Program-made: the position numbers and the translations under genes
DNA from: Opitutaceae bacterium
Lineage (GTDB): Bacteria > Verrucomicrobiota > Verrucomicrobiia > Opitutales > Opitutaceae
Direction of reading: 5' to 3'
Assembly: GCA_016794665.1 (NCBI GenBank)
Contig: JAEUHB010000086.1
Coordinates: 1-56,394 of the forward strand
DNA length: 56,394 nt
Shown here: piece after piece, positions 7,041 to 19,793 of the stretch
How positions within the stretch are numbered: the first letter of the stretch is position 1
Layout: each line of letters begins with the position of its first letter
The notes under the pieces: model-generated
What the model was told of the DNA's origin: nothing
What the model saw: only the letters and a program-made list of their open reading frames with translations
Database searches by the model: none

Positions 7041-8510
7041 TCAGGGCGACTTGCCGCTCAGATCGATGGTGACCGTCGCCTCGCTGAAGTTGGCCGGGCT
7101 CGCGATCTCGGTGATGCGATAGCGGAACGTGTAGAGACCCGAGGAAGTCTTGGGCGCGACGGTGACCGCACCGGTCGAGAGGTTCAGGGCAAATCCCTTG
7201 GGCAGCGCGGCGGGCAAGGAGATCGCGACCTTGGCGGTGGTCGCCCGAGCGCCACTGAACGTGTCGTTGGCGAGCACGCTCGCGATGACCGTGCCGCCCG
7301 TTTTCGATGAGCCGCGCGCGGAATCGGGCGCGGCGTAGATCGCGTTCGGGCGAATCGTCACGGTCGCCTGCGACGTGTTCGCGGGATTCGCGCGCTCGGC
7401 GATGCGATAGGTGAGCGTGTGCGTGCCGTGCGGGGTGCCCGGCGCGACGGTGACGGCGCCGGTGGCGGGATTGAGCGCGACGCCGGCGTGGCTCGAGGAA
7501 ACCTGCGCCAGCACGACGACGGAAGGCGCGGCGATGACGCCGCCGAGCGTATCGTTGGCAAGCACGTTCGCGACGGCAGTGCCGCCGGCCGCGAACGCGA
7601 CATAACCCTGATCGGCGGCCGCAAAGATCGGATACGAACGCACCGTGACGAGGGCGACGGCATCGTCATTGTTCGCCGGATTGCCGACCGCCGCGATGCG
7701 ATAGACGAGCGCGTGGGTGCCGGCCGCCGTGCCCGGGGCGACGGCGAGCGTGCCGTCGGCGGACAACGTGAGCCCGGCAATCGCCGGTGATTCCAGAGTG
7801 AGTGTAACCGTTGCAGCGGTGGGGCGCACCCCGCCGATCCAGTCGTTGGCGAGCACATTGAGGGCGGCGCCGCCGAGCGGCGAAGGCGAGAATCCGGCGT
7901 CGTCGTTGGCATGGACCTTGCCGTCGAACTGGCCGGTCGGCCGCCACAGGAAGACGCCGATGCCGCCCGCGGCGGCGCCGCTCGCGCCCTGAACATGGAA
8001 CGACCCTGTGGTGAAGAAGGTGTCGAGGCTCGTGATCACGGCCGCCTCCACGGGCTGGTTGGTGGCATCCGATCGCGCAGTCCAGCCTGCGGTCATGCGA
8101 AAATCAAAACAGGGCTGATAGGTCGGGCAGCCGGCGAAGGCCTGGGTCGTGCGGAAAACCGCGTGGAACTGGGACGCGGGAGTAACGTATTCGGGGCCCG
8201 CGACCGTGAGGGTCGGGCTCGCGGCAATCGCGGGGGCCCAGCGGCTGAAGAGTTGCACGACCTGGGCGTCGGTGGCCCAGACCCAGCCGGTGAGCGCGCG
8301 GCCATTGACCGTGCCAATCGCCGGAGTCACCCCGTCCTGCGACGCGACGGCGGCGACCTGAGCCCAGCTGAGGCCGGTCGTTTCAGTGAGCTGGCGCCAT
8401 TCCTTGCCGGCGCCGTCGTTGAAATGCTGCGCGTGCGCGGGGGTGAGATGGGCGATAAGAAAAGCGGCGCCCGTGGCGACCGCGCGCAGTCCATTGCGTT
8501 CTGGGTTCAT
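7041..8510 (-). CDS. Secreted protein with three Ig/cadherin-like VLAND repeats
   Basis: A 489-residue exported protein. ATG 8510 gives MNPERNGLRAVATGAAFLIAHLTPAHAQ, a signal peptide. An N-terminal domain of about 210 residues (GWVWATDAQVVQLFSRWAP; a CPTYQPC pair of cysteines; ending GGIGVFLWRP) has no function I recognise. It is followed by three repeats of about 85 residues, each with the phrase VLAND (for example ALNVLANDWIGG, VANVLANDTLGG, IASVLANDTFSG), a V-x-V-A-P-G-T/K-x-x-G turn and HTLTYRI-like strand, as in bacterial Ig/cadherin-like domains. It ends at the third repeat with no sorting signal. Likely a surface or secreted adhesion or matrix protein. It diverges from the TonB receptor gene at 8688. 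Confidence 0.75.
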   Translation of the reverse strand: MNPERNGLRAVATGAAFLIAHLTPAHAQHFNDGAGKEWRQLTETTGLSWAQVAAVASQDGVTPAIGTVNGRALTGWVWATDAQVVQLFSRWAPAIAASPTLTVAGPEYVTPASQFHAVFRTTQAFAGCPTYQPCFDFRMTAGWTARSDATNQPVEAAVITSLDTFFTTGSFHVQGASGAAAGGIGVFLWRPTGQFDGKVHANDDAGFSPSPLGGAALNVLANDWIGGVRPTAATVTLTLESPAIAGLTLSADGTLAVAPGTAAGTHALVYRIAAVGNPANNDDAVALVTVRSYPIFAAADQGYVAFAAGGTAVANVLANDTLGGVIAAPSVVVLAQVSSSHAGVALNPATGAVTVAPGTPHGTHTLTYRIAERANPANTSQATVTIRPNAIYAAPDSARGSSKTGGTVIASVLANDTFSGARATTAKVAISLPAALPKGFALNLSTGAVTVAPKTSSGLYTFRYRITEIASPANFSEATVTIDLSGKSP

Positions 8511-8687
8511 AGTTGGGATGTTGCTCGCGCCAATCTCCGGCATTCCCCGGAGCGGCCGACATTCCAGGATCGTAACAGTCCTGAGACATTCACCGGACTG
8601 ACGAATGCGGGGGGCGAGCATCGGCTTGACCGCAAGGGGCTCGTGTTGGCTCATTGTCGAGCCCCAGCAGACCCCGTCACCGCCCCC

Positions 8688-11600
8688 ATGAAACTGCCTC
8701 TCACCCGCCTTGTCATCCTGTTTGCCGCGCTCCTGCCGGTCTTTGGTGCCGCGCAACCCGCCGCCGCCAGCTCAATCACCGGCCGCATCTTCAATCCCGC
8801 CACCGGCGAATACCTGCGCAATGCGCAGATCCGCATTGTCGAGACCGGCCAGCGCACCGTGTCCGAGGACGAGGGCGCGTTCCGCGTCGCGCCCGTCCCG
8901 CCCGGTCGTGTCACCGTGGAGGTGAGCTACACCGGCTACCGCACGATCTCGGCGGTGGTCGAGGTGGCTGCGGGAGCTGCCGTGACCAAGGATTTCAACC
9001 TCATCAGCACGTTGCAGACTGCCGGCGAGACCGCGGTCAAACTCGATGCATTCACTGTCTCTTCCGAACGCGAGGGCAGCGCCAAGGCGATCATGGATCA
9101 GCGGCGCAACATGAACGTGACCAACACCGTTGCGTCGGACGCCTTCGGCGACAACGCCGAGGGCAACATCGGCGAGTTCCTGCGCCACCTGCCCGGCGTC
9201 GAGCTAAACCTCAACTACGGCGAGGTGCGCACCGTGAGCCTCGGCGGCCTGCCCGCCGAATACACCTCGGTCACGATGGACGGCGTGTCACTCGCAAGCG
9301 TCGATGCCAACAACAGCGGCTCCGGCGCCGCGCGCTCCTTCACGATGGAGATGGCCTCGCTCAACTCGATGGAATCGATCGAGGTCAGCAAAACCATCAG
9401 CGCCGACATGGAGGCCAACGCGCCGGCCGGCACGATCAATCTGCGCACCAAGCGCGCGTTTGACCGCGCAGGCCGGCGCGTCTCGTGGCAGGCGACCGTC
9501 GCCGCAAGCTCTTCCGCGTTTGGACTCGGCCGCTCCCTCGGGCCCGATGAGGACCAGCGCACTTACAAACTCCGTCCCGGCGGCATCCTTGAGTATTCCG
9601 ATGTGTTTCTCAACAAACGGCTCGGCCTCGTGCTCAACGTCAGCGAGTCCAACGTCTATCAGGAGGCGCTGATATCGGCCCTCGCCTACAACGCCACGCC
9701 CACCGCCACCGATCCGCGCCCACTCGTTCCGACCACCCTGAATTTTCAGTGGGCGCCGCGCTTCAACAAACGCTTTGCGACGACGCTCACCGCCGACTAC
9801 AAGATTTCCCAAGAACTCAACGTGGGGGTCGGCATCGTCTACAACTACGCCGATCTCTGGACGCCACAACGCACCGTCATCTTCAACGCCGGTGCGCGTG
9901 CCGCGGTCGTGGGCGCGAACCCGACGCTCAGCTTCACCTCCGGCCCGGCCGGCACGGTGCAGGTGAATCCCGTCGCCGTCTCCAAGCTGGGCGAGACCTT
10001 CACCGTGCTGCCGCGCGTGGCTTTCAAGCGCGGCAACTTCGACATCGAGGGCAAGTTTGCCTACACTGACTCGACGAGCTGGTATGACCCGCTCGGCCGC
10101 CGGAACTCGATCCGTGACACCAATTCCCCCACGGCGAACAACATAACCTTCCGTGCGCAGCGCTCGTCGGAGATGACCGCCGACTGGTCGTTTGCCCAGA
10201 TTGCCGGCAACGATATTTCCCGCGGAGCAAGCTATACCAGCCCGTCGATCACGGTGAACGACGGCCGCTTCGGCCGCACGGTGTTCCTCAGCGGCGACGT
10301 CAATGCCACCCTCAAGACCTCGATGTGGCGCCCCATCGTCTGGAAAAGCGGCCTCAAGGTGCGCCAGCAGTTCCAGAAATTCGAGGACGACCAGCTCGCC
10401 AAGCGCTACGACTACGCCCCCGGCGGCGGCGCGGCCGTCGGGACCGGCGCGTGGGCCAACCAAAGGTCGCCGTGGGAATACGACCTCGGCATGAACAACG
10501 GCTCCATCAGCTCCGTCTCGGGCGCCAACGTCTTCATGCCGCACCTGCGCGGCATCCGTGAACTCTACGCCGCGCGACCCGGCGACTTCCGCCAGAACTG
10601 GGGCGCCAACAACGATAACTTCTACCAATCCTACGTCGCGCGCCGCCGCCGCTACAGCGAGCGCATCGACGCCGGCTACTTCATGGGCACCGCCAGCCTC
10701 GGCCGCGGGCTCACGGCCCGCGCCGGCCTGCGTTGGGAAAAGACGAACACCGATGCAAGCGAGGCCAACACCCGCACGCCCGCCGAGGTGCGCGCGGCGG
10801 GGTTCGCCGTAACCGCGGCCGGGGTCGCGACCACGATTCCAGGCATCGAGTATCAGTTTCTATCCCGTCCGCGCGTCAACCGCACCGGCGACTACGAAAA
10901 CCTGTTTCCCAGCGCATCGTTGAAATACGGCATCCTCCGCAATCTCGACCTCCAGCTCGGCTATAGCTCCACCATCCGCCGCCCTTCCTACGTCAACCTC
11001 TCCGGCGTCTGGATTATCGACGACACGCCCAACACACCCGGCGCCCTACCCACGGTCACCGCGCCCAACCCGAAGCTCAACCCGGAGACTTCCGACAACT
11101 ATGCGGCGCGGCTCGCGTATTATTTCGAGCCGGTTGGCCTGCTGGCGGTGACGGCGACCGAGCGCGCCGTGAAAAACCTCTTCATCACAGACCGCCAGAC
11201 CGCGGCGGAATTCGGCTACACGGGTAACGACGAGCTCGCCAACTACGAGTTCATCACCACCAACAACGGCACCGACACGATCAAGATCCGAAGCATGGAG
11301 ATCGAATACAGCCAGAGCCTCTCATTCCTCGGGAAGGCGTTCCGGCGGCTCTCTGTGCGCGGCAGCTACACCCGCGTCTACGCCGAGATTCCCCGCGCCA
11401 ACCTCACCCCCCACATCGCCAATGGCGGGCTCAACTGGTCGTTCGGCCGCCTGAACCTCTACGGCAACTGGAATTGGCTCGACGATGTGAACACCAACGT
11501 CGCCGGCACTACCTATCGCCGGCACCGCACCAACCTCGACGCCGGCGGCAGCTGGCGCCTCAACAACACCTACACGCTATCCGTCAGCGTCCGAAACATC

Positions 11601-11711
11601 CTGGACACACCGTATGTGAACATGCAGCGCTTCGCGTCGGGCCCGACGGCGCTGACGCGCAACGAGTTTGTCGGACGCAATTGGACGTTCGCCGTCAAGG
11701 GCGCCTATTGA
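8688..11711 (+). CDS. TonB-dependent receptor with N-terminal carboxypeptidase-like domain
   Basis: A 1007-residue outer-membrane receptor. ATG 8688 gives a signal peptide (MKLPLTRLVILFAALLPVFG); the frame is open far upstream but that is chance coding. Residues about 28-115 form a carboxypeptidase regulatory-like domain (SITGRIFNPATGEYLRNAQI, VEVSYTGYRT). The plug follows (NIGEFLRHLPGVELNLNYGE, VSLGGLPAEYTSVTMDGV, VEVSKTISADMEANAPAGTI-type motif), and a 22-strand-type barrel ends in NWTFAVKGAY. The family imports siderophores, vitamins or oligosaccharides with energy from TonB. There is no SusD partner beside it, and the neighbours give no clear substrate. The convergent neighbour ends 12 bases away. 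Confidence 0.92.
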   Translation: MKLPLTRLVILFAALLPVFGAAQPAAASSITGRIFNPATGEYLRNAQIRIVETGQRTVSEDEGAFRVAPVPPGRVTVEVSYTGYRTISAVVEVAAGAAVTKDFNLISTLQTAGETAVKLDAFTVSSEREGSAKAIMDQRRNMNVTNTVASDAFGDNAEGNIGEFLRHLPGVELNLNYGEVRTVSLGGLPAEYTSVTMDGVSLASVDANNSGSGAARSFTMEMASLNSMESIEVSKTISADMEANAPAGTINLRTKRAFDRAGRRVSWQATVAASSSAFGLGRSLGPDEDQRTYKLRPGGILEYSDVFLNKRLGLVLNVSESNVYQEALISALAYNATPTATDPRPLVPTTLNFQWAPRFNKRFATTLTADYKISQELNVGVGIVYNYADLWTPQRTVIFNAGARAAVVGANPTLSFTSGPAGTVQVNPVAVSKLGETFTVLPRVAFKRGNFDIEGKFAYTDSTSWYDPLGRRNSIRDTNSPTANNITFRAQRSSEMTADWSFAQIAGNDISRGASYTSPSITVNDGRFGRTVFLSGDVNATLKTSMWRPIVWKSGLKVRQQFQKFEDDQLAKRYDYAPGGGAAVGTGAWANQRSPWEYDLGMNNGSISSVSGANVFMPHLRGIRELYAARPGDFRQNWGANNDNFYQSYVARRRRYSERIDAGYFMGTASLGRGLTARAGLRWEKTNTDASEANTRTPAEVRAAGFAVTAAGVATTIPGIEYQFLSRPRVNRTGDYENLFPSASLKYGILRNLDLQLGYSSTIRRPSYVNLSGVWIIDDTPNTPGALPTVTAPNPKLNPETSDNYAARLAYYFEPVGLLAVTATERAVKNLFITDRQTAAEFGYTGNDELANYEFITTNNGTDTIKIRSMEIEYSQSLSFLGKAFRRLSVRGSYTRVYAEIPRANLTPHIANGGLNWSFGRLNLYGNWNWLDDVNTNVAGTTYRRHRTNLDAGGSWRLNNTYTLSVSVRNILDTPYVNMQRFASGPTALTRNEFVGRNWTFAVKGAY

Positions 11712-11723
11712 CGGCGGCCGCGG

Positions 11724-13013
11724 CTACCTTTGCCGCTTCGGCAGCTTCGTGCGGAAAATCGGCACGGCACGCGGCGGCGTGGGCGCGGCGTCGGTGTTCT
11801 CAAACCGCGTCCAGCCAGCATTGCCGATGAAGTAGAAATCGCCGCCCGCCGCGACGCAGCCGAGCGACGGCGCCGCCATCGCAAGGTGCGCCGCCTCGAG
11901 GACCCTGACCGCCGCGACCGACTCCGCGTCGCCATCGATCTCGACGCGCAGCACCCGGCTCGGCCGCAGCCCGTTTTGGATCGCGAGCACGGCGCCGTCG
12001 GGCGCCAGCGCCAGCCCATCCAAGCCGATGAGCGAAGTGTCTGGCGGCGACTCCAGTCGCCGCACTTTCCTGGCCGCCAGATCGACGCGGAGCAGGCCGG
12101 CCGCATGATCCGCCACGATAGCCACCCCGCCGAGCAAGACGATGCCCTGCAGCGACAGGAATTCCTCGTTCTCGATCCACGGCTCGAGCGCGGCGCCACC
12201 GGGCGCAAGGCGCCAGAGCATCGGGCCGCCGCTGTCGGTGACCCACACGGTGCCGTCGTCACCCACGGCGAGATCGCCGAGCACGTGCGAGTGCCGGTCG
12301 CCCGGCGGCCGATTCGCCGGCAGCACCCTCCGGATGGCGCCGCCCGCAAGGTCGATTTCGGCGAGCGCGGCAGCCCCATCCATTTCGGGCGTGAAGCCGC
12401 GCATCGCGGCGACGGCGGCAGTTGCGGCCCAAATCGTCCCGCCGACCTCGTCGATCGCGAGGCCGAAGACGCCGAGCAAATCGTCGCCCTCCGGCGTGAC
12501 GCGGCGCAACGCCTCGTCCGGCCCCCGCACCCAGACGGCGCGGCCGTTGACGTCGCCAAAATAGAACGCCCCCGTCTTCGCGCGCCATGCGATTCCCTCC
12601 AAGAGGCCGGTCACGCCGCGCAGGGAAAACGCAATCTCGCCGGCGCCCTTCGGGTGGTTGTTGGCGGCGAGCTTCTTCACGACGCCTTCAAACTCCTTGC
12701 GCCCTCGCAGCGCCGCGAACTCCGCGGACTTCTCGACGGGCGAAGTAAGCCCGAGCCTTGCGAGCCGCTCGAGAGTCGCGAGCGCGTCGTCCGCACGACC
12801 GGCCGCAACCTGGGCCGCCGCGAGGTTCACGTGGATACGCGGGTAGTCGGGCCGCAACACAATCGCTTCTTCGAGCTTCGCAATCGCCACCTCCGGCGCC
12901 TGTTCCTCAGCGACGGCCTCGCGCGCCAGACGCAGCGCGCGGACGGTGTCCGTCTCCGCGGCAAACGCGCTGGCCAGCAAAGCGCCACAGAGTGCGAGGC
13001 GCCCGGGCTTCAT
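11724..13013 (-). CDS. Secreted TPR and SMP-30/NHL-like beta-propeller protein
   Basis: A 429-residue exported protein with a signal peptide (MKPGRLALCGALLASAFAAE). Residues about 22-115 look like tetratricopeptide-type helical repeats (AIAKLEEAIVLRPDYPRIHV, NLAAAQVAAGRADDALATLE). The remainder is a beta-propeller of the SMP-30/NHL type (LLEGIAWRAKTGAFYFGDV, LGDLAVGDDGTVWVTDSGG, GLDGLALAPDGAVLAIQNG). The propeller may bind a ligand or act as a lactonase; the metal ligands cannot be judged with confidence. It is the last gene of a four-gene operon, 17 bases after the Gly-rich protein with calcium loops, so it may act on the same extracellular structure. The TonB receptor gene converges on its end with no visible terminator. 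Confidence 0.75.
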   Translation of the reverse strand: MKPGRLALCGALLASAFAAETDTVRALRLAREAVAEEQAPEVAIAKLEEAIVLRPDYPRIHVNLAAAQVAAGRADDALATLERLARLGLTSPVEKSAEFAALRGRKEFEGVVKKLAANNHPKGAGEIAFSLRGVTGLLEGIAWRAKTGAFYFGDVNGRAVWVRGPDEALRRVTPEGDDLLGVFGLAIDEVGGTIWAATAAVAAMRGFTPEMDGAAALAEIDLAGGAIRRVLPANRPPGDRHSHVLGDLAVGDDGTVWVTDSGGPMLWRLAPGGAALEPWIENEEFLSLQGIVLLGGVAIVADHAAGLLRVDLAARKVRRLESPPDTSLIGLDGLALAPDGAVLAIQNGLRPSRVLRVEIDGDAESVAAVRVLEAAHLAMAAPSLGCVAAGGDFYFIGNAGWTRFENTDAAPTPPRAVPIFRTKLPKRQR

Positions 13014-13030
13014 GACGAATCCGGGTTGGG

Positions 13031-14167
13031 CTAGAGGCCGAGGATCGCGCGCAGGATCGCGACCGCGAGATCGACGGGGCTGCCGCCACCGCCGCCCTGC
13101 CCTCCGCCTTGCTGCCCTCCGGGCTGGCCGGCGCCGCCGCCTCCTCCACCGCCACCGCCGGAGCTGCCGCCCGAACTGCCACCCGACTGCCCGCCGGATT
13201 GTCCGCCTTGTTGACCGCCCTGCTGGGCCCCTTGGCGACCTCCTTGCTGGCCCGCCTGGCCGCCTTGGCCACCTTGGCCGCCGGAACCGCCACCGCCCGC
13301 CGAAGCCACTTTTTGCAGGCCACCACGGCCGGCTCCGACAATCCCATTGGGATCGTTGTCGTCGCCTCCCTCGCCGCCCCCCTCGCCGCCGGCTCCGCCA
13401 GCGCGACCGGATTTTCCACCTTTGCCACCCTTGCCAGATTTTCCGTCGGCACCATCGCCGCCATCTCCACCTTGGCCTCCTTTGCCGTCCTTGCCTTCGC
13501 CACCTTGGCCGGCGCCACCTTGGCCCTCGGCGCCTAGACCGGTGCCCGCACGGATTTTCTCGTCCATCGTGCCAAAGGCGTAGTCATCCTTGCCGTTGCC
13601 GATGCCGTCGCCGTCGATGTCGTCATCCTGGTCATTAGGGATGCCGTCACCGTCCATGTCGTTGTCCTTGGCGTTGGGAATACCATCGCCGTCGAGGTCG
13701 CCATCCGGCCCGCTCTTGCCGTCCCCAGAGACACGGCCGAGGCCACTGCCGCCGCCTTGGCCGGCGCCATCCCCGCCCTGACCGCCTTCACCTCCCTGCC
13801 CGCCCTTGCCGAAGACACCCGAGTAGGTGAACTTCACGAAATCAACTTGGCTAGTGGACAACGTGGCACGGTTGCGAATCGCAGCATCACGCACGGTCTC
13901 GAGGTCCCACTTGCGTTTGCGCGCCTCCTCTCGGTCAGCCAGAGGGCCGAAAAGGTAGATGAGGTTCTCGTGGCGATAGCGCACATACCAGCCCTCGTCC
14001 GTGGGGCCGAGGCCGCTTACATTTATGCCGGCGTATTTCGCACGGAACTCGTCCGCGGGAAGGTTCCACAGATCCTGAATCGCGTCGACCGGGTAAATCA
14101 TCATCGTCGCGGCGGCGTGGCGCGCGACCGCGAGGAAGAGGAGGAGGAAGTAGAGACGGGGTTTCAC
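13031..14167 (-). CDS. Secreted Gly-rich protein with calcium-loop (TSP3-like) repeats
   Basis: A 378-residue exported protein (signal peptide MKPRLYFLLLFLAVARHAAA). Residues about 21-115 form a folded N-terminal domain with WNLPADEFRAKYAGINVSGL and YRHENLIYLFGPLADREEAR. Then comes Gly-rich sequence, three perfect-period 13-residue Asp-rich repeats at 157-195 (each D-x-DGDGI-x-N-x-x-D-x, as in thrombospondin type 3 or dockerin-like calcium loops), and more than 150 residues of Gly/Gln/Ser low complexity (GGQGGQGGQAGQQGG and a nine-Gly run). The C-terminus becomes hydrophobic (VDLAVAILRAILGL). It could be an extracellular matrix, fibre or spacer protein whose rigid part is calcium-dependent. 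No known family was recognised for the N-terminal domain. It sits 17 bases after a second Gly-rich gene. Confidence 0.75.
   Translation of the reverse strand: MKPRLYFLLLFLAVARHAAATMMIYPVDAIQDLWNLPADEFRAKYAGINVSGLGPTDEGWYVRYRHENLIYLFGPLADREEARKRKWDLETVRDAAIRNRATLSTSQVDFVKFTYSGVFGKGGQGGEGGQGGDGAGQGGGSGLGRVSGDGKSGPDGDLDGDGIPNAKDNDMDGDGIPNDQDDDIDGDGIGNGKDDYAFGTMDEKIRAGTGLGAEGQGGAGQGGEGKDGKGGQGGDGGDGADGKSGKGGKGGKSGRAGGAGGEGGGEGGDDNDPNGIVGAGRGGLQKVASAGGGGSGGQGGQGGQAGQQGGRQGAQQGGQQGGQSGGQSGGSSGGSSGGGGGGGGGAGQPGGQQGGGQGGGGGSPVDLAVAILRAILGL
13583..13699 (-). repeat. Three in-frame 39-bp repeats encoding calcium loops
   Basis: Three consecutive 39-base units encode 13-residue peptides of the form D-x-D-G-D-G-I-x-N-x-x-D-x (residues 157-195 of the Gly-rich protein). 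The Asp spacing matches calcium-binding loops of thrombospondin type 3 repeats. Codon differences between units show that the repeats are not a very recent duplication. Confidence 0.8.
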
Positions 14168-14184
14168 AGGGAAAGTGCGCCGGA

Positions 14185-14955
14185 TCAGAGGCCGGACGGA
14201 ATCGCGCGGCCCTTCTCCACTCGGTTTGCGCCACCCGTGCTGGAGGGCCCCTTGCCGCCGGTGCCAGTGCCCTTGTCGTGGTTCTGGGTGTTCGGAGCCT
14301 GCTGTTGCTGTGCGCCCACCACCCCTTTCTGTGCCGCGGAGGCATTTTCGATTCGCATGGCCTTGTCGCCGATGGAAACCTGCTGAGGCTTCCCGCCCTC
14401 CGCGCCACCCGAGGCCCCTGCCTGTTGCGGGCCGCCAGCCTCACCGCCAAGTTCAGCCACTTGGATGCCTTGGGCCTGGGCACCCGGCTCTCCGCCACCG
14501 GCAACAGGACTACCCGCGGCGGCCGGCGGAGCGCCTGCCTGCTGCTGGCCGCCCACGGGTTGCTGGCCGCCGGCCTGGGCGCCTCCCAGCGGGGGCTGGC
14601 CGCCACCGGCACCGCCACCGGAAGGCAGGCCCATTTGCTGTGGGCCGGACAGTTGACCGCCACCCGGTGGGGTCGGCGCGCCGTTTTGCTGTCCCCCGAC
14701 TTTGCCGCTGCGAGCGTTGTCGTCGCCCGGCAACTCAAAGTCACCGATCATGCCGTGCTCGCTTTTCTTAATCGCGGGCAGGTTTGAACCGTCCAGCAAC
14801 GCCGGATCAGGAAGCACTCGCCCGGCCTTCGCGGCAGCCGCGCCCGAGCGGGGAGGAACCGGCTTTGCGGCGGACTCAGCGCCGGCCGCCGGAGCAACGA
14901 GAAGCGACGTGAGGATCACCGAGCCGGTGACAATAAGGGGGCGGACCGAGCGCAT
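14185..14955 (-). CDS. Secreted Gly/Gln/Pro-rich protein of unknown function
   Basis: A 256-residue exported protein with a signal peptide (MRSVRPLIVTGSVILTSLLV, cleavage near AAGAES). The mature chain has almost no predicted globular core: it is Gly, Gln, Pro and Ala-rich (GGQLSGPQQMGLPSGGGAGG and similar), with two short charged islands (ALLDGSNLPAIKKSEHGMIG near 53-72 and VSIGDKAMRIENASA near 193-207) that might be binding motifs. No known family was recognised. It lies 9 bases after the TPR membrane protein and 17 bases before the calcium-loop Gly-rich protein, with which it shares composition; the pair are probably partners rather than duplicates because their conserved islands differ. 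Confidence 0.7.
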   Translation of the reverse strand: MRSVRPLIVTGSVILTSLLVAPAAGAESAAKPVPPRSGAAAAKAGRVLPDPALLDGSNLPAIKKSEHGMIGDFELPGDDNARSGKVGGQQNGAPTPPGGGQLSGPQQMGLPSGGGAGGGQPPLGGAQAGGQQPVGGQQQAGAPPAAAGSPVAGGGEPGAQAQGIQVAELGGEAGGPQQAGASGGAEGGKPQQVSIGDKAMRIENASAAQKGVVGAQQQQAPNTQNHDKGTGTGGKGPSSTGGANRVEKGRAIPSGL

Positions 14956-14964
14956 GGGGAGAGA

Positions 14965-16683
14965 TTAGCTGCGATCGTTGGACACGGAACAGGCCACGGT
15001 AACGACGGGCGGTGGCGTCCCATTGCGGACCTGGAGGAGCATAGTCACATCACGATAGCCCTTGCGGCGCCCGATGATCTCGTAGTTGCCGGGGAGCATC
15101 TTGAGCGTGAGCGAATCGGCGATTTTCTGCGGCGTGCGGAAATTTGTGATCGAGACCCAAGTGTTGCCGTCGGACTTGAAGGTGACGTCAACGGGCTGGT
15201 TCTGGCTCATGAGGAGCTGCTGGAGCTGCTGCACGCGGTCGCTGGCCACGAGGTAGGAGGGCTTCACGGCCATGGCCTCGTTGAAGCGCTTAATCGCGGT
15301 CTGGAACTCCGCCTTGTTGGCCGCCTGCTCGGCGGCCTCGATGAAGCGCTCGTAGTTGAGCAGCGCACGAATGACCGTGCCCGCGCGGGTATAGCCCTCC
15401 TTCGCATCGGCGAGGTCGGGTTCGAGTTGGAGGGTCTCGCTGTAAGCCTCGCGCGCTTCACGCCATTGATAGGCCTTCTCATGCGAGAAGCCCCGGGCGA
15501 GGGACTTTTGCACGGATTCCTTGTGCGCGCTCTCACGAGCCGATTTGAGGGCGGCCTGCACCTCGGGCTTCTGCGGGTAGACCTTTAGCGCAGCCTGATA
15601 CTCCGCGATGGCCTTGCTCCAGTCGCGGGCCTTGACGGCGGCGTCGGCGGCGTTCTTGGCGGCGGCGAACTTCGTTTCCTTCTCCAACCGTGCGGCGCGC
15701 GCAGCCCCCTCCTGCGCCACGGCAGACATGGCGTCGAGGCCAAAGGCTTTCTTGTAAGATTCGGCGGCCTCGGCGAATTGGCCCTCCTTTTCCTGCTTCT
15801 CGCCTTGCTGGAGCAGCGCGTAGACGCGGTCGATGTTCTCCGAGCGCTTGAGGCCCTGGACCGCGTGCTCGTTGGCCGGCGCTTTCTCAAGGGCCGCGGA
15901 GAAGGCCTTGCGCGCCTCGTCCTTTTCACCCCGCGCCAGCGCACGTTGGCCAGACACGACATTCTTCTGCACAAAGTCCGCGACGGCCTGCTCGGCCTTC
16001 CTGAGCTCGGCGAACCCGGCGTCGAACACCTTCTTCGCGCCCGTGAAGTCGCCGTCCCCCACGAGCCGGTTCCCGCTTGCCGCCGCGGCGAAGGCCGCGT
16101 CGAGCGCCTCGGGCGCCAGCGACCGGGCGATCTCAAGCTCCTTTATCCTGAGGAGGATCTTGTTGTAGGACTGCTTGGCCTCGCCCTTGATTTTCAGGTT
16201 GGCGCTGAACGCATCGATGTCGCCGCGCAGACCCTCGAAGACCTTGAGGGCCTTGGCCCACTCGCGCTCCCCGAGCAGGTGCGTGCCGCCGTGATATTCC
16301 GTCTCCATGCGCACCAGCTCATCCGTCTGGCGCGGATGGTCGGGCGGAATGCGCTTCAGCTCGCCGAGCGACTTGGTCGCAAGGTCGCGAAGCTGCTCCG
16401 CCTTGGTCTGGGCGAGGAAGGAGGCGTTGGCGTCGGCCACCGTCTCGTCCTTGGCTACGACCGCACCGCGCGGCCTGAAGACATCCGGGCCGAAGACCAG
16501 CTTGGCGCCCCGTATCAGGATGCCGGCCACGATGAGCAGGGCGACGAATCCGCCGACGCCCCAGGCGGCGATGCGCAGGGGGGTCCAGCGTGAGCGCGCC
16601 TGCTCCCGGCCGGCGTCAGGGTTCCAATGGATGATGCGGCGTTTTTTCGCCTGCGCGGAGTCGGACTCGATTTCCTCTGCCAT
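14965..16683 (-). CDS. Membrane-anchored TPR protein with PEGA-like C-terminus
   Basis: A 572-residue protein. A charged cytoplasmic tail is followed by one transmembrane helix (about residues 36-60, IAAWGVGGFVALLIVAGILI). A long Ala/Lys/Glu-rich helical region follows, with TPR-like units (AKALKVFEGLRG, EEAAESYKKAFGLD-type, AIAEYQAALKVYPQKPEVQA, AREAYSETLQLEPDLADAKE, AIKRFNEAMAVKPSYLVASD). The last 80 residues resemble a PEGA-type beta domain (VTFKSDGNTWVSITNF, LTLKMLPGNYEIIGRRKGYR), which often binds cell-wall or surface components. It is the first gene of the 16683-11724 operon. A role as inner-membrane scaffold for the export or anchoring of the two Gly-rich proteins is inferred from gene order only. 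Confidence 0.78.
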   Translation of the reverse strand: MAEEIESDSAQAKKRRIIHWNPDAGREQARSRWTPLRIAAWGVGGFVALLIVAGILIRGAKLVFGPDVFRPRGAVVAKDETVADANASFLAQTKAEQLRDLATKSLGELKRIPPDHPRQTDELVRMETEYHGGTHLLGEREWAKALKVFEGLRGDIDAFSANLKIKGEAKQSYNKILLRIKELEIARSLAPEALDAAFAAAASGNRLVGDGDFTGAKKVFDAGFAELRKAEQAVADFVQKNVVSGQRALARGEKDEARKAFSAALEKAPANEHAVQGLKRSENIDRVYALLQQGEKQEKEGQFAEAAESYKKAFGLDAMSAVAQEGAARAARLEKETKFAAAKNAADAAVKARDWSKAIAEYQAALKVYPQKPEVQAALKSARESAHKESVQKSLARGFSHEKAYQWREAREAYSETLQLEPDLADAKEGYTRAGTVIRALLNYERFIEAAEQAANKAEFQTAIKRFNEAMAVKPSYLVASDRVQQLQQLLMSQNQPVDVTFKSDGNTWVSITNFRTPQKIADSLTLKMLPGNYEIIGRRKGYRDVTMLLQVRNGTPPPVVTVACSVSNDRS

Positions 16684-16960
16684 GGTGGGAGTGGGCCGAA
16701 GTTTAGAAAAAGTTGGTTGGACGGGAAAGCGCTGTCGAGCAGGACGGCTGCGCCCGAGTTTGGTTAGACGGGCGCCGCCGTCGTTCGTTCAGATCGGGGT
16801 CAAAACCTGAACGCAGGCAACGTGCCGGCAATCCCGCAATTTGCAAAGGCCATTGAAATTTTCCCGGAGCTTTTTGGTAACGGTTTGGTCGGGTGCTCAG
16901 GCCGCTTGCCAAAATCACGAGTCAAATTATGGCTTCGCCGCAACCGTCCCTTTTTTCGCC
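16684..16960. other. Divergent intergenic region with imperfect direct repeat
   Basis: This 277-base gap separates the TPR operon (leftward) from the M48 protease gene (rightward) and must hold both promoters. It contains a 13-base imperfect direct repeat, TTGGTTGGACGGG at 16713-16725 and TTGGTTAGACGGG at 16760-16772, with one mismatch and 47 bases between starts, and a 7-base inverted repeat CGTTCAG/CTGAACG at 16786-16792 and 16807-16813. Either could be an operator. I see no gene and no convincing promoter hexamer pair. Confidence 0.4.
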
Positions 16961-17773
16961 ATGAAAACCCCGGCCCGCCTCCTTTTGCCCGCGTTTGCCT
17001 CAATCCTGCTCACTTCCTGCTATCAGGTGCCGGTGACCGGCCGTAGCGCGATGAACCTGGTCGACGACAAGGAAGTCACCAAGATGAGCGTGGGGATGTT
17101 TGACGACATGAAGCGCCGCCACCGCCTTTCCCGCGACAAGGACCGCATCGAACAACTCAACCGCGTGGGCACGCGCATCTCAAAGGTGGTGTTCTGGGAC
17201 ATGCCGGACGCCGACTGGGAGTTCGTCGTTTTCGAGGTTCCGGAAATCAACGCGTTCGCCATGGCCGGCGGCAAGGTGGGAATCTTCACCGGCCTCTACA
17301 AGGTGGCGAAGACCGACGACGAGCTCGCCGCCGTCATCGCGCACGAGATTGCCCACGTCACTGCCAAACATGTGCATGAGCGGCTCTCCCGCGGCCTGGC
17401 TACCAATACGATTGGGGCGGTCGGCATGGTCGGCGGCATCGCGGGCGGGTCCGGGCTGATGGTCGAGGCCCTGAGCCAGATCTACGGCATCAGCGCGGGC
17501 ATCACCGGCTTCGCCTACGACCGTCGCGCCGAAAAGGAGGCCGACTACATCGGCCTCATGTATATGGCCCGCGCCGGCTACGATCCGCAGGCCGCCGTGC
17601 GCGTGATGGAGGCGATGGACGCCGAGACCGCGAGCGAGCCGAAGCCGCCCGCGATGCTCTCCACGCACCCCAGCGGCCCGGAACGCATTATCCAACTCAT
17701 GGACGCCATGCCAAAGGCGCTCGCAGAGCGCGCAAAGAGCAGCGTGGTCTCCGGACCGATAATCTTGAAATAA
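16961..17773 (+). CDS. M48-family zinc metalloprotease lipoprotein
   Basis: A 270-residue lipoprotein. ATG 16961 gives MKTPARLLLPAFASILLTSC with the acylated Cys at 20; the frame opens 40 codons earlier but that part lacks sense. The zinc site is HEIAH at residues 128-132, and the third ligand is the Glu of RRAEKEADYIG, as in M48 peptidases such as LoiP and BepA that maintain outer-membrane proteins. NAFAMAGGKVGIFTGLY and STHPSGPERI are also family signatures. There is no TPR extension, so it is closer to LoiP than to BepA. It is transcribed alone, ending at a multi-hairpin element shared with the convergent YugP-like gene. Confidence 0.9.
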   Translation: MKTPARLLLPAFASILLTSCYQVPVTGRSAMNLVDDKEVTKMSVGMFDDMKRRHRLSRDKDRIEQLNRVGTRISKVVFWDMPDADWEFVVFEVPEINAFAMAGGKVGIFTGLYKVAKTDDELAAVIAHEIAHVTAKHVHERLSRGLATNTIGAVGMVGGIAGGSGLMVEALSQIYGISAGITGFAYDRRAEKEADYIGLMYMARAGYDPQAAVRVMEAMDAETASEPKPPAMLSTHPSGPERIIQLMDAMPKALAERAKSSVVSGPIILK

Positions 17774-17790: not shown

Positions 17791-17839
17791 GGGCGGACCG
17801 CAGTCCGCCCTAGGATTTCAATCCTAAGCCCGACGGGCT
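17791..17839. terminator. Three consecutive perfect hairpins between convergent genes
   Basis: Three back-to-back inverted repeats fill the space between the M48 and YugP-like genes: GGGCGGAC-CGCA-GTCCGCCC (17791-17810), TAGGATT-TC-AATCCTA (17811-17826) and AGCCC-GAC-GGGCT (17827-17839). The first is preceded by AAAAA, so read leftward it forms a GC stem followed by a U tract, and it can serve as an intrinsic terminator for the YugP-like gene. The last hairpin overlaps that gene's stop codon. The composite looks more like a dispersed REP-type element than a single terminator. Confidence 0.7.
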
Positions 17840-18536
17840 ATTCGTCGCGCCGCCCGCCGCCGAACAGCATCAGCAGCAGGTGCAGGATCTGGAAGAGGGA
17901 GGCGACGAAGGCCGCCACATAGGTGAGCGCGGCCGCGTTGAGCGTCTCGTTCACGCCGTCCATCTCATCGCGCTCCACGATGCCCAGCGAGACCAGCTGC
18001 TTCTTGGCGCGCGCCGTGGCATCGAACTCCACCGGCAGCGTCACGAACTGAAAGAGCGCGACCACAATCAGAGCCGCCAGCGCAATCTTGATGATCAGGC
18101 CGCCCATCGCGGCACCCGCGAGATAAATGCCGAAACCGCATAGCAGCCCCGCCACCGGCGACGCGATTTGCATCGCCGGGACCATCGTCTGCCGCAGCGA
18201 CATCATCGAGTAGCCGACCTTGTGCTGGATGGCGTGGCCGGCTTCGTGCGCCGCAACACCGACGGCCGCCAGCGATGATCCGTGGTAGTTGTCCGGCGAC
18301 AACGCGAGCCGCTTGTTGGTCGGATCGTAGTGATCGCTAAGCATGCCCTCGACCTCGACGATTTCGACATCGTGGATACCCGCGCTCTGCATTACGGCCG
18401 CTGCGGCCTCGCGGCCCGTGATCCCACCACGCGACGGGATCTGGACGTTCTTCCGGTAGGCACTCATCACGCGCATCTGGGCGTAGAGGCCGAAGAGCAT
18501 GGGGACTGCAATCAGGATGAGGAGATAGATAATCAT
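17838..18536 (-). CDS. YugP-like membrane zinc metallopeptidase
   Basis: A 232-residue polytopic membrane protein of the neutral zinc metallopeptidase family typified by YugP. An N-terminal helix (MIIYLLILIAVPMLFGLYA) is followed by a cytosolic part with the zinc-binding motif HEAGH (residues 97-101), preceded by the family phrase LSPDNYHGSSLAAVGVAAHE. Three further hydrophobic helices follow (about 121-145, 147-168 and 205-226), with LPVEFDATARAKK between them, another family landmark. Its cellular role is unclear; relatives are linked to membrane protein quality control. It is converged upon by an unrelated zinc protease gene. Confidence 0.9.
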   Translation of the reverse strand: MIIYLLILIAVPMLFGLYAQMRVMSAYRKNVQIPSRGGITGREAAAAVMQSAGIHDVEIVEVEGMLSDHYDPTNKRLALSPDNYHGSSLAAVGVAAHEAGHAIQHKVGYSMMSLRQTMVPAMQIASPVAGLLCGFGIYLAGAAMGGLIIKIALAALIVVALFQFVTLPVEFDATARAKKQLVSLGIVERDEMDGVNETLNAAALTYVAAFVASLFQILHLLLMLFGGGRRDE

Positions 18537-18575
18537 GACAGTGAGGATGGGTTGATGGACGCGACGTTAAGCAAA

Positions 18576-18605
18576 ACGCGGAATATGCCAGCGCAAATTC
18601 CGCGT
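18576..18605 (-). terminator. Intrinsic terminator after Gfo/Idh gene
   Basis: Read on the minus strand, a 9-base perfect stem ACGCGGAAT/ATTCCGCGT with a 12-base loop is followed by TTTGCTT. It lies 39 bases beyond the stop of the Gfo/Idh gene and upstream of the YugP-like start at 18536, so it should separate the two transcription units. Confidence 0.65.
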
Positions 18606-18644
18606 CGTGGAAACGAACCCGACAATTTCCAGTCGCTCCAAGCC

Positions 18645-19793
18645 TCAGCCGAGTTTTGGCACGTCCACCCAACGGCGCTCCGCCCACGACTTGAGGCCGA
18701 GCTCCGCGAGCTGCACGCCCTTGGCACCCTGGAAGAGATTCCACGGGAATGGGTCGCCCTTCACGACGTGCCGGAGGAAGAGCTCCCACTGCACCTTGAA
18801 CGCATTGTCGTAGAAGCCCTGATCCGGCACGCGCGTCCAGCCCTCAAAATACTTGATCGGCGAATCGATGTCGGGATTCCAAATGCAACGCGGCGTGGCC
18901 GAGAGATGCTGCGCCGTGCAGTCGCGCAACCCCGCGACCGCCGTGCCGTGCGTGCCATCGACTTGCAGTGTAAGTAGGTCGTCGCGGCGCACGCGCACGT
19001 CCCACGAAGAGTTGAACTGGCAGACCACACCGTTGACCAACTCGAAGGTCGCATACGCAGAGTCGTCGGCGGTGCACTTGTAGGCTTTGCCCGCCTCATC
19101 CCAGCGTTGCGGGATGTGCGTCGCGCCGAGGCAGGTGAGGGACTTCACCTCCCCAAACAGATTCTGAATCACATACTGCCAGTGGCAGAGCATATCGACG
19201 ATGATGCCGCCGTCGTCCTCCTTGCGATAGTTCCACGACGGACGCTGCAGCTTCTCGTGCTCGCCCGTAAACACCCAGTAGCCGAACTCCCCGCGCACCG
19301 ACAAAATCTTCCCGAAGAACCCTGTGTCGATGAGGTATTTCAGCTTCAGCAGGCCGGGCAGCCAGAGCTTGTCCTGCACGACGCCATTTTTGAGACCGGC
19401 GGCCGTCACTTCCCTCGCGAGGGCGAGCGCCTCAGCCGAGGTCGTCGCCGAGGGTTTTTCGCAGTAGATGTGTTTCTTCGCCGCAATCGCCTTCCGCACG
19501 CCCGCCGGCCGCTGGCCGGTCAGCGTCGCGTCGAAATAGACTTGGTTCGCTGCGTCCGCCAGCGCCGCGTCGAGGTTGGTCGAAAAGCGTTTCACGCCAG
19601 CGCGGGCCGCGAGCGCCGCAAGCTTCGCCTCGCTGCGCCCGATGAGAATCGGGTCCGGCATGATAACCTCGGTGTCGCCGATTTTGATGCCGCCCTGGTC
19701 TATGATCGCCTTCACCGATCGAAGCAGGTGCTGATTGGTGCCCATGCGTCCGGTGACGCCGTTCATGATGATGCCGACTTTGTGCGTGGTCAT
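18645..19793 (-). CDS. Gfo/Idh/MocA-family oxidoreductase
   Basis: A 382-residue NAD(P)-dependent sugar or cyclitol dehydrogenase. The N-terminal Rossmann region has GIIMNGVTGRMG (residues 8-19), and the family's EKP motif occurs as IYCEKPSATTS (about 109-119), which places the catalytic Lys. The C-terminal alpha/beta domain includes GEFGYWVFTGEHEKLQRPSW and DMLCHWQYVIQNLFGEV with a conserved His. These features are typical of the family, whose members oxidise or reduce ring hydroxyls of sugars. The divergent AraC-type gene at 19893 is its likely regulator. The actual substrate is not evident. Confidence 0.88.
   Translation of the reverse strand: MTTHKVGIIMNGVTGRMGTNQHLLRSVKAIIDQGGIKIGDTEVIMPDPILIGRSEAKLAALAARAGVKRFSTNLDAALADAANQVYFDATLTGQRPAGVRKAIAAKKHIYCEKPSATTSAEALALAREVTAAGLKNGVVQDKLWLPGLLKLKYLIDTGFFGKILSVRGEFGYWVFTGEHEKLQRPSWNYRKEDDGGIIVDMLCHWQYVIQNLFGEVKSLTCLGATHIPQRWDEAGKAYKCTADDSAYATFELVNGVVCQFNSSWDVRVRRDDLLTLQVDGTHGTAVAGLRDCTAQHLSATPRCIWNPDIDSPIKYFEGWTRVPDQGFYDNAFKVQWELFLRHVVKGDPFPWNLFQGAKGVQLAELGLKSWAERRWVDVPKLG

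Follow-up and report, generated by a model that had tools for sequence, protein, structure and literature searches.

A conserved cell-envelope gene set in Opitutaceae and their relatives joins an M48 metalloprotease to a TPR membrane protein and two exported proteins

Organisation of the locus

The window analysed here is the whole 56,394-nucleotide stretch of contig JAEUHB010000086.1 from an Opitutaceae bacterium (assembly GCA_016794665.1). Four open reading frames follow each other on its minus strand, separated, as an earlier note on this DNA had described, by gaps of 9, 17 and 17 bases. Gene A (14965..16683) encodes a TPR membrane protein of 572 aa, characterised by Pfam TPR_2, a 26-sequence alignment, an AF2 model and Foldseek; gene B (14185..14955) encodes an exported, probably disordered protein of 256 aa that is rich in Gly, Gln and Ala and is recognised by three short conserved motifs; gene C (13031..14167), which begins with a GTG start, encodes 378 aa comprising a signal peptide, a conserved domain, a hypervariable linker and an amphipathic tail; and gene D (11724..13013) encodes an exported protein of 429 aa with TPRs and an SGL/propeller-like part. 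On the plus strand, divergent from A, lies a gene for an M48 metalloprotease lipoprotein (16961..17773; lipobox LLTSC when read from an ATG start), assigned by Pfam, by synteny and by tree and paralogue tests. The two share an upstream region of 277 bp (16684..16960), in which a promoter scan returned no sigma-70-like site; terminator-like sites did not exceed chance level.

Behind the M48 gene, at 17838-19793 on the minus strand, are genes for a Zn_peptidase_2 protein (PF04298) and a Gfo/Idh/MocA oxidoreductase, which also occur in many loci of the family, the oxidoreductase being about 90% identical in relatives. At the other end, a TonB-dependent receptor with a carboxypeptidase-regulatory domain (7911-11711, plus strand) converges on D and ends 12 bases from its stop codon; the listed start of this open reading frame is probably too early.

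Domain architecture of the encoded proteins

The description of A as a membrane TPR protein is borne out by a basic N-terminus, a single transmembrane (TM) helix and, after it, TPRs, which score 39.8 bits against the TPR_2 model (cut-off 27, E 3e-10); Foldseek likewise retrieves TPR proteins. The AF2 model places the TM helix at residues 35-64, TPR helices at 82-494 and strands at 498-552, and sequence and model together locate the TM helix at about residues 36-60 (16504..16578, minus strand). By the positive-inside rule, the N-terminus would be cytoplasmic and the TPRs periplasmic. At its C-terminus, A carries a domain (14986..15198, minus strand) defined by alignment and AF2, with the pattern LLPGxYxVIGRRKGYxDVxxxLQVRxG, which had earlier been called PEGA-like. 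The all-beta character of this domain agrees with that description as far as an AF2 prediction goes, but Pfam finds no PEGA domain (PF08308) in A, and the C-terminal domain taken alone from seven relatives reaches at best 12.9 bits against a cut-off of 20.8, so that the likeness is weak and we do not assign the domain to PEGA. A search among plasmids returned no relative of this C-terminus.

B consists of 22% Gly, 15% Ala and 10% Gln and begins with a signal peptide. Its three motifs, all read on the minus strand, are LPDPALLDGS (14785..14814), whose counterpart in distant relatives, close to the start of the mature protein, is PDPxIFDG; VSIGDKAMRI (14350..14379), identified by alignment as an instance of hxIGDxxxxI; and the free C-terminus VEKGRAIPSGL (14188..14220), which in the alignment of relatives takes the form GxExGxxhPxxL-COOH. 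Relatives of B retain PDPxxxDG, hxIGDxxxxI and the GxExGxxhPxxL end, and what lies between these is Gly/Gln/Ser filler of variable length.

C also begins with a signal peptide and contains 31.5% Gly overall, rising to 45% over residues 121-365. The earlier statement that two of the products are largely Gly/Gln low complexity is right about the Gly-rich nature of B and C, but C is more than a Gly-rich fibre, having a conserved domain and a tail. The domain, of about 100 aa (13799..14110, minus strand), is supported by alignment, profile and AF2; its signature is YxHExLxYYFGP, and in the family set its invariant residues are P, G-I, D, G, Y, R-Y, H, L and G-P. Modelled from an alignment of four sequences (the window and three other loci), it adopts in AF2 a b-a-b-b-a-b order at pLDDT 75 and pTM 0.67, and neither Foldseek nor VIA, searched with this model, returned a SPOR domain or anything above noise. 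DUF1816 (PF08846) gave weak matches, all below cut-off, in 4/18 C domains (best E 0.007), with none for the domain in the window and none in the genome of the window; the link to DUF1816 is weak. No Pfam or NCBIfam model matched B or the C domain above cut-off, and a scan of viral contigs with 17 patterns found no relative of C.

The linker of C ranges from 0 to 380 residues, its length and composition drifting freely among relatives. In the window it includes, as had been noted, about three calcium-loop-like repeats of the form DxDGDGIxNxxD, encoded by a 39-bp tandem repeat (13601..13706, minus strand). These resemble the DxDGDGIxN loops of thrombospondin type 3 repeats (PF02412), but they fall below the TSP_3 cut-off (13.6 bits against 25, E 0.054) and are optional within the family, being found in 15 of 41 relatives. 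The protein ends in an amphipathic tail, PVDLAVAILRAILGL (13034..13078, minus strand), with the consensus xPLxLxxxLLRxILGL, or WxxIKRxFGF in other families, and with hydrophobic moments of 0.34-0.78. Since the tail is not a true TM helix, its putative membrane-seeking character is read from the helical moment only. Twelve of the 41 relatives consist of the domain without linker or tail, and in the stand-alone C proteins of the f44 lineage (five loci) every complete linker terminates in a TM helix.

For D, the propeller named in the earlier note is a tentative assignment, as the SGL model (PF08450) scores 22.0 bits, below its cut-off of 26.3, at an E-value of 1.4e-4.

Conservation within the family

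To describe the conservation of the locus we used 150 genomes of the family, of which 54 contain A (two of them as weak matches), together with three named Verrucomicrobia/Opitutaceae contigs; 40 regions of up to 16 kb around A and the three contigs make up 43 family loci. B follows A in all 43, and C follows B wherever the contig is long enough, always on one strand, with median gaps of 12 bases between A and B and of 17 bases between B and C; A is 30-75% identical across these loci. This recurrence of the A-B-C order is far beyond chance. A divergent M48 gene stands upstream of A in 42 of the 43 loci.

D behaves differently. Besides the window, it adjoins A-B-C in three of the 43 loci (L033, L034 and L036), and relatives of D occur in 36 of the 150 genomes, mostly elsewhere and in some cases without a detected A (for example in G003, G037 and G040). 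The earlier note had read all four genes as one operon and had proposed a search for their conserved order in Opitutaceae, counting it as refutation if they were not conserved together: that order is conserved for A, B and C and fails for D, and we reject a four-gene unit that includes D, given the rarity of the adjacency and the occurrences of D at other loci. D, outside the conserved set, would be a locally acquired passenger. The genome of the window holds a second D relative (G000:C109:33362-34501), 44% identical and with a TGA within the match.

The M48 protein of the window is a clear member of its family (Peptidase_M48, PF01435; 126.5 bits against a cut-off of 20.3, E 1.4e-36). Seven genomes of the family that lack A-B-C also give M48 matches, among them one from the same genus (G006) and three from genera that also hold carriers (G007, G037 and G071), but the best match in each is only 40-46% identical. 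In the tree, the M48 proteins of these seven genomes form one clade, with support of 100/100, apart from the linked copies, and the linked/unlinked label changes twice on the tree as against 9.3 times in shuffles. When eleven carriers were searched with the unlinked type, the linked copy was present in 11/11 and a second, better match (53-81%) lay elsewhere in 9/11. A Fisher test of linked M48 against A-B-C gives 3e-5, a value that serves only as a rough guide, since few genomes were sampled and these are related to one another. As a paralogue, the linked M48 has been gained and lost together with A-B-C. Given that D is rarely adjacent and that the linked M48 copy tracks A-B-C, the unit is M48/A-B-C, a cell-envelope gene set that is strongly conserved within one order, in Opitutaceae and relatives. 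A literature search found no paper describing this gene set, and the earlier remark that no known system could be named agrees with this, in that no named family or system covers A, B and C.

Distribution beyond the family

Searched with a profile, the C domain turns up in 21 of the 132 genomes sampled from the order and in 18 of the 289 sampled from the phylum. Among 23 distant loci, A lies upstream of C on the same strand in 15, and a B-like gene was seen between the two in those read (L105, L107, L111, L116 and L118); of the remaining eight, five belong to the f44 lineage, one lies at the edge of its contig, L120 has only B and C, and L110 has only C. Outside the family M48 is not adjacent, except for a same-strand M48 in L107. 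One distant locus, L119 (G211 C6:255296-256891), retains C in a small genome of 1.7 Mb in which a TAG interrupts A, and a stand-alone C of the f44 lineage has beside it a pair of neighbouring coiled-coil proteins with one TM helix (L124, 9192-11066).

In the 289 phylum genomes, the A and C profiles each match 18 genomes, 17 of them common to both. However, in the genomes checked, four of f44 and one of f49, the A match lies in a different operon, with genes for an FGE-sulfatase/PEGA protein and a lipoprotein and, in f49, also ExbB and VWA genes. We therefore do not count the f44 genomes, in which A and C co-occur, in support of the module, and only 13 genomes of the order speak for it; in those that were fetched, A and C are linked.

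The TPR proteins of these other operons, as at L158 (4470-9517) and L162 (5007-12892), are homologous to A and share its C-terminal beta domain (E 1e-16 to 2e-64), and their partners are likewise exported or membrane proteins. The operons differ from the M48/A-B-C set in encoding an FGE-sulfatase protein that bears PEGA domains and a lipoprotein, sometimes with ExbB and VWA proteins; they have no B, and C, where present, is unlinked. The TPR protein of L162 has, besides its TPRs, an N-terminal part, and its operon also includes ExbB/MotA and VWA genes. At L114 (6698-14082) a hybrid operon runs lipoprotein, A, PEGA/FGE, short B, C and a small TPR protein, and ties the two kinds of operon together. 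With A-like proteins present in FGE operons, the role of A may extend beyond the M48/A-B-C module.

Discussion

We propose that M48 and A-B-C form a conserved envelope module in which a TPR scaffold, a disordered adaptor and a membrane-tethered domain act under the control of a protease, a reading to which we give a probability of roughly 45%. What is observed is the gene order, the spacing, the joint gain and loss of the M48 and the domain layout; the steps of the mechanism are deduced from the anatomy of the proteins. A would act as a scaffold in the periplasm with its anchor in the inner membrane, and B would be a disordered adaptor whose N-terminal, IGD and free C-terminal motifs would serve as docking peptides, the TPR groove of A, the C domain or both being our best guess for the docking target. 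C would be a folded domain on a flexible leash, held to the membrane by its C-terminal helix, from which it would reach, and then sense or bind, a partner in the envelope, be it peptidoglycan, the outer membrane or a client protein. The role of the M48 lipoprotein would be to control the turnover of the A-B-C assembly or of its clients. Against this proposal stand the absence of a true TM helix from the C tail, the 12 short C proteins that have no tail, the A-like proteins of the FGE operons, and the fact that the M48 is not adjacent outside the family, the same-strand copy in L107 excepted.

Two other readings of the gene set have to be weighed against this module. The earlier note had pictured an extracellular matrix, fibre or surface layer, in which B and C would be secreted, Gly-rich structural polymers and A and D would provide a scaffold and parts for processing or sensing. 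Its idea of a membrane scaffold with exported proteins stands, as A, B and C make up a conserved exported or envelope set with a membrane TPR scaffold; B and C are indeed exported and Gly/Gln rich, and C in the window has its calcium loops. The structural part of the proposal fares badly, however: the Gly-rich part and the tail are absent from 12 of 41 C proteins that keep the small domain, the calcium loops occur in only 15 of the 41, the linker drifts in length and composition, the tail of C is either membrane-seeking or a TM helix, and D is not conserved. What is kept in C is a folded domain and a membrane-seeking C-terminus, and the variability and loss of the Gly-rich part make it unlikely, from the sequences, that its core function is to form a polymer. 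In addition, no outer-membrane export channel was found among the conserved neighbours at family or distant loci, and we regard a matrix or surface layer as decidedly unlikely. The gene set could also serve the assembly or quality control of the outer membrane or of lipoproteins much as BepA/LoiP do, joined here by a TPR partner and with B and C as chaperone-like holdases. The co-inheritance of an M48 lipoprotein with A-B-C, the TPR scaffold and the disordered exported partners would all suit such a role, and the linked M48 has, like LoiP and BepA (PF01435), a Peptidase_M48 domain and a lipobox. It differs from them in being genetically tied to A-B-C and stands apart from the unlinked M48 proteins found alongside it in carriers; the conserved neighbours include no BAM, Lol or Lpt gene, and A is an inner-membrane protein, so this reading, too, strikes us as improbable.

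A more specific proposal concerns C alone. The b-a-b-b-a-b order predicted for its domain is also found in SPOR/RNP-like folds. In design, C is similar to the SPOR proteins FtsN, DamX, DedD and RlpA (PF05036), with a folded domain on a disordered, membrane-tied leash, and most SPOR proteins are described as having a small domain and a TM anchor joined by a disordered low-complexity region (PMC6895207). Pfam SPOR was found in 0/115 Verrucomicrobiota genomes and in 0/19 close relatives, with 6/14 controls positive. One may thus imagine that C takes over the function of SPOR proteins in a phylum where Pfam SPOR was not found, its tethered domain binding a particular state of peptidoglycan during wall growth or division. 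The likeness beyond the predicted order of strands and helices is nevertheless one of layout only. The polarity of C is reversed, with the anchor at the C-terminus, and YxHExLxYYFGP takes the place of the SPOR glutamine strand. Sequence tests speak against SPOR membership: at E<=10 the PF05036 profile gave no match to any of the 18 C domains searched, and hhalign of the C domain with three SPOR domains (FtsN, CwlC and RlpA) gave a probability of 2.7%. Nor did the structural searches give a clear match, with a model of pLDDT only 75, and the module is present in a minority of the family (54/150 genomes) and hence cannot be a general division factor. We hold a stand-in for SPOR to be quite doubtful. 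Still less probable is the bolder form of this idea, in which C would open a new class of wall-sensing domains that, leashed and tethered to the membrane, do the job of SPOR in Opitutales; their assembly would fall to a TPR scaffold together with a disordered adaptor, and their control to a dedicated M48 protease.

Apart from these readings, B and the C domain represent two protein families that match no Pfam or NCBIfam model above cut-off and that persist across distant members of a single order of Verrucomicrobiota. Both are clean cases of exported proteins in which the ends or a folded head stay fixed while hundreds of residues between them drift, and the short motifs and the C domain named here can be tested directly. 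If the C domain does sense the cell wall, the finding would bear on how a phylum without detected SPOR organises that task.
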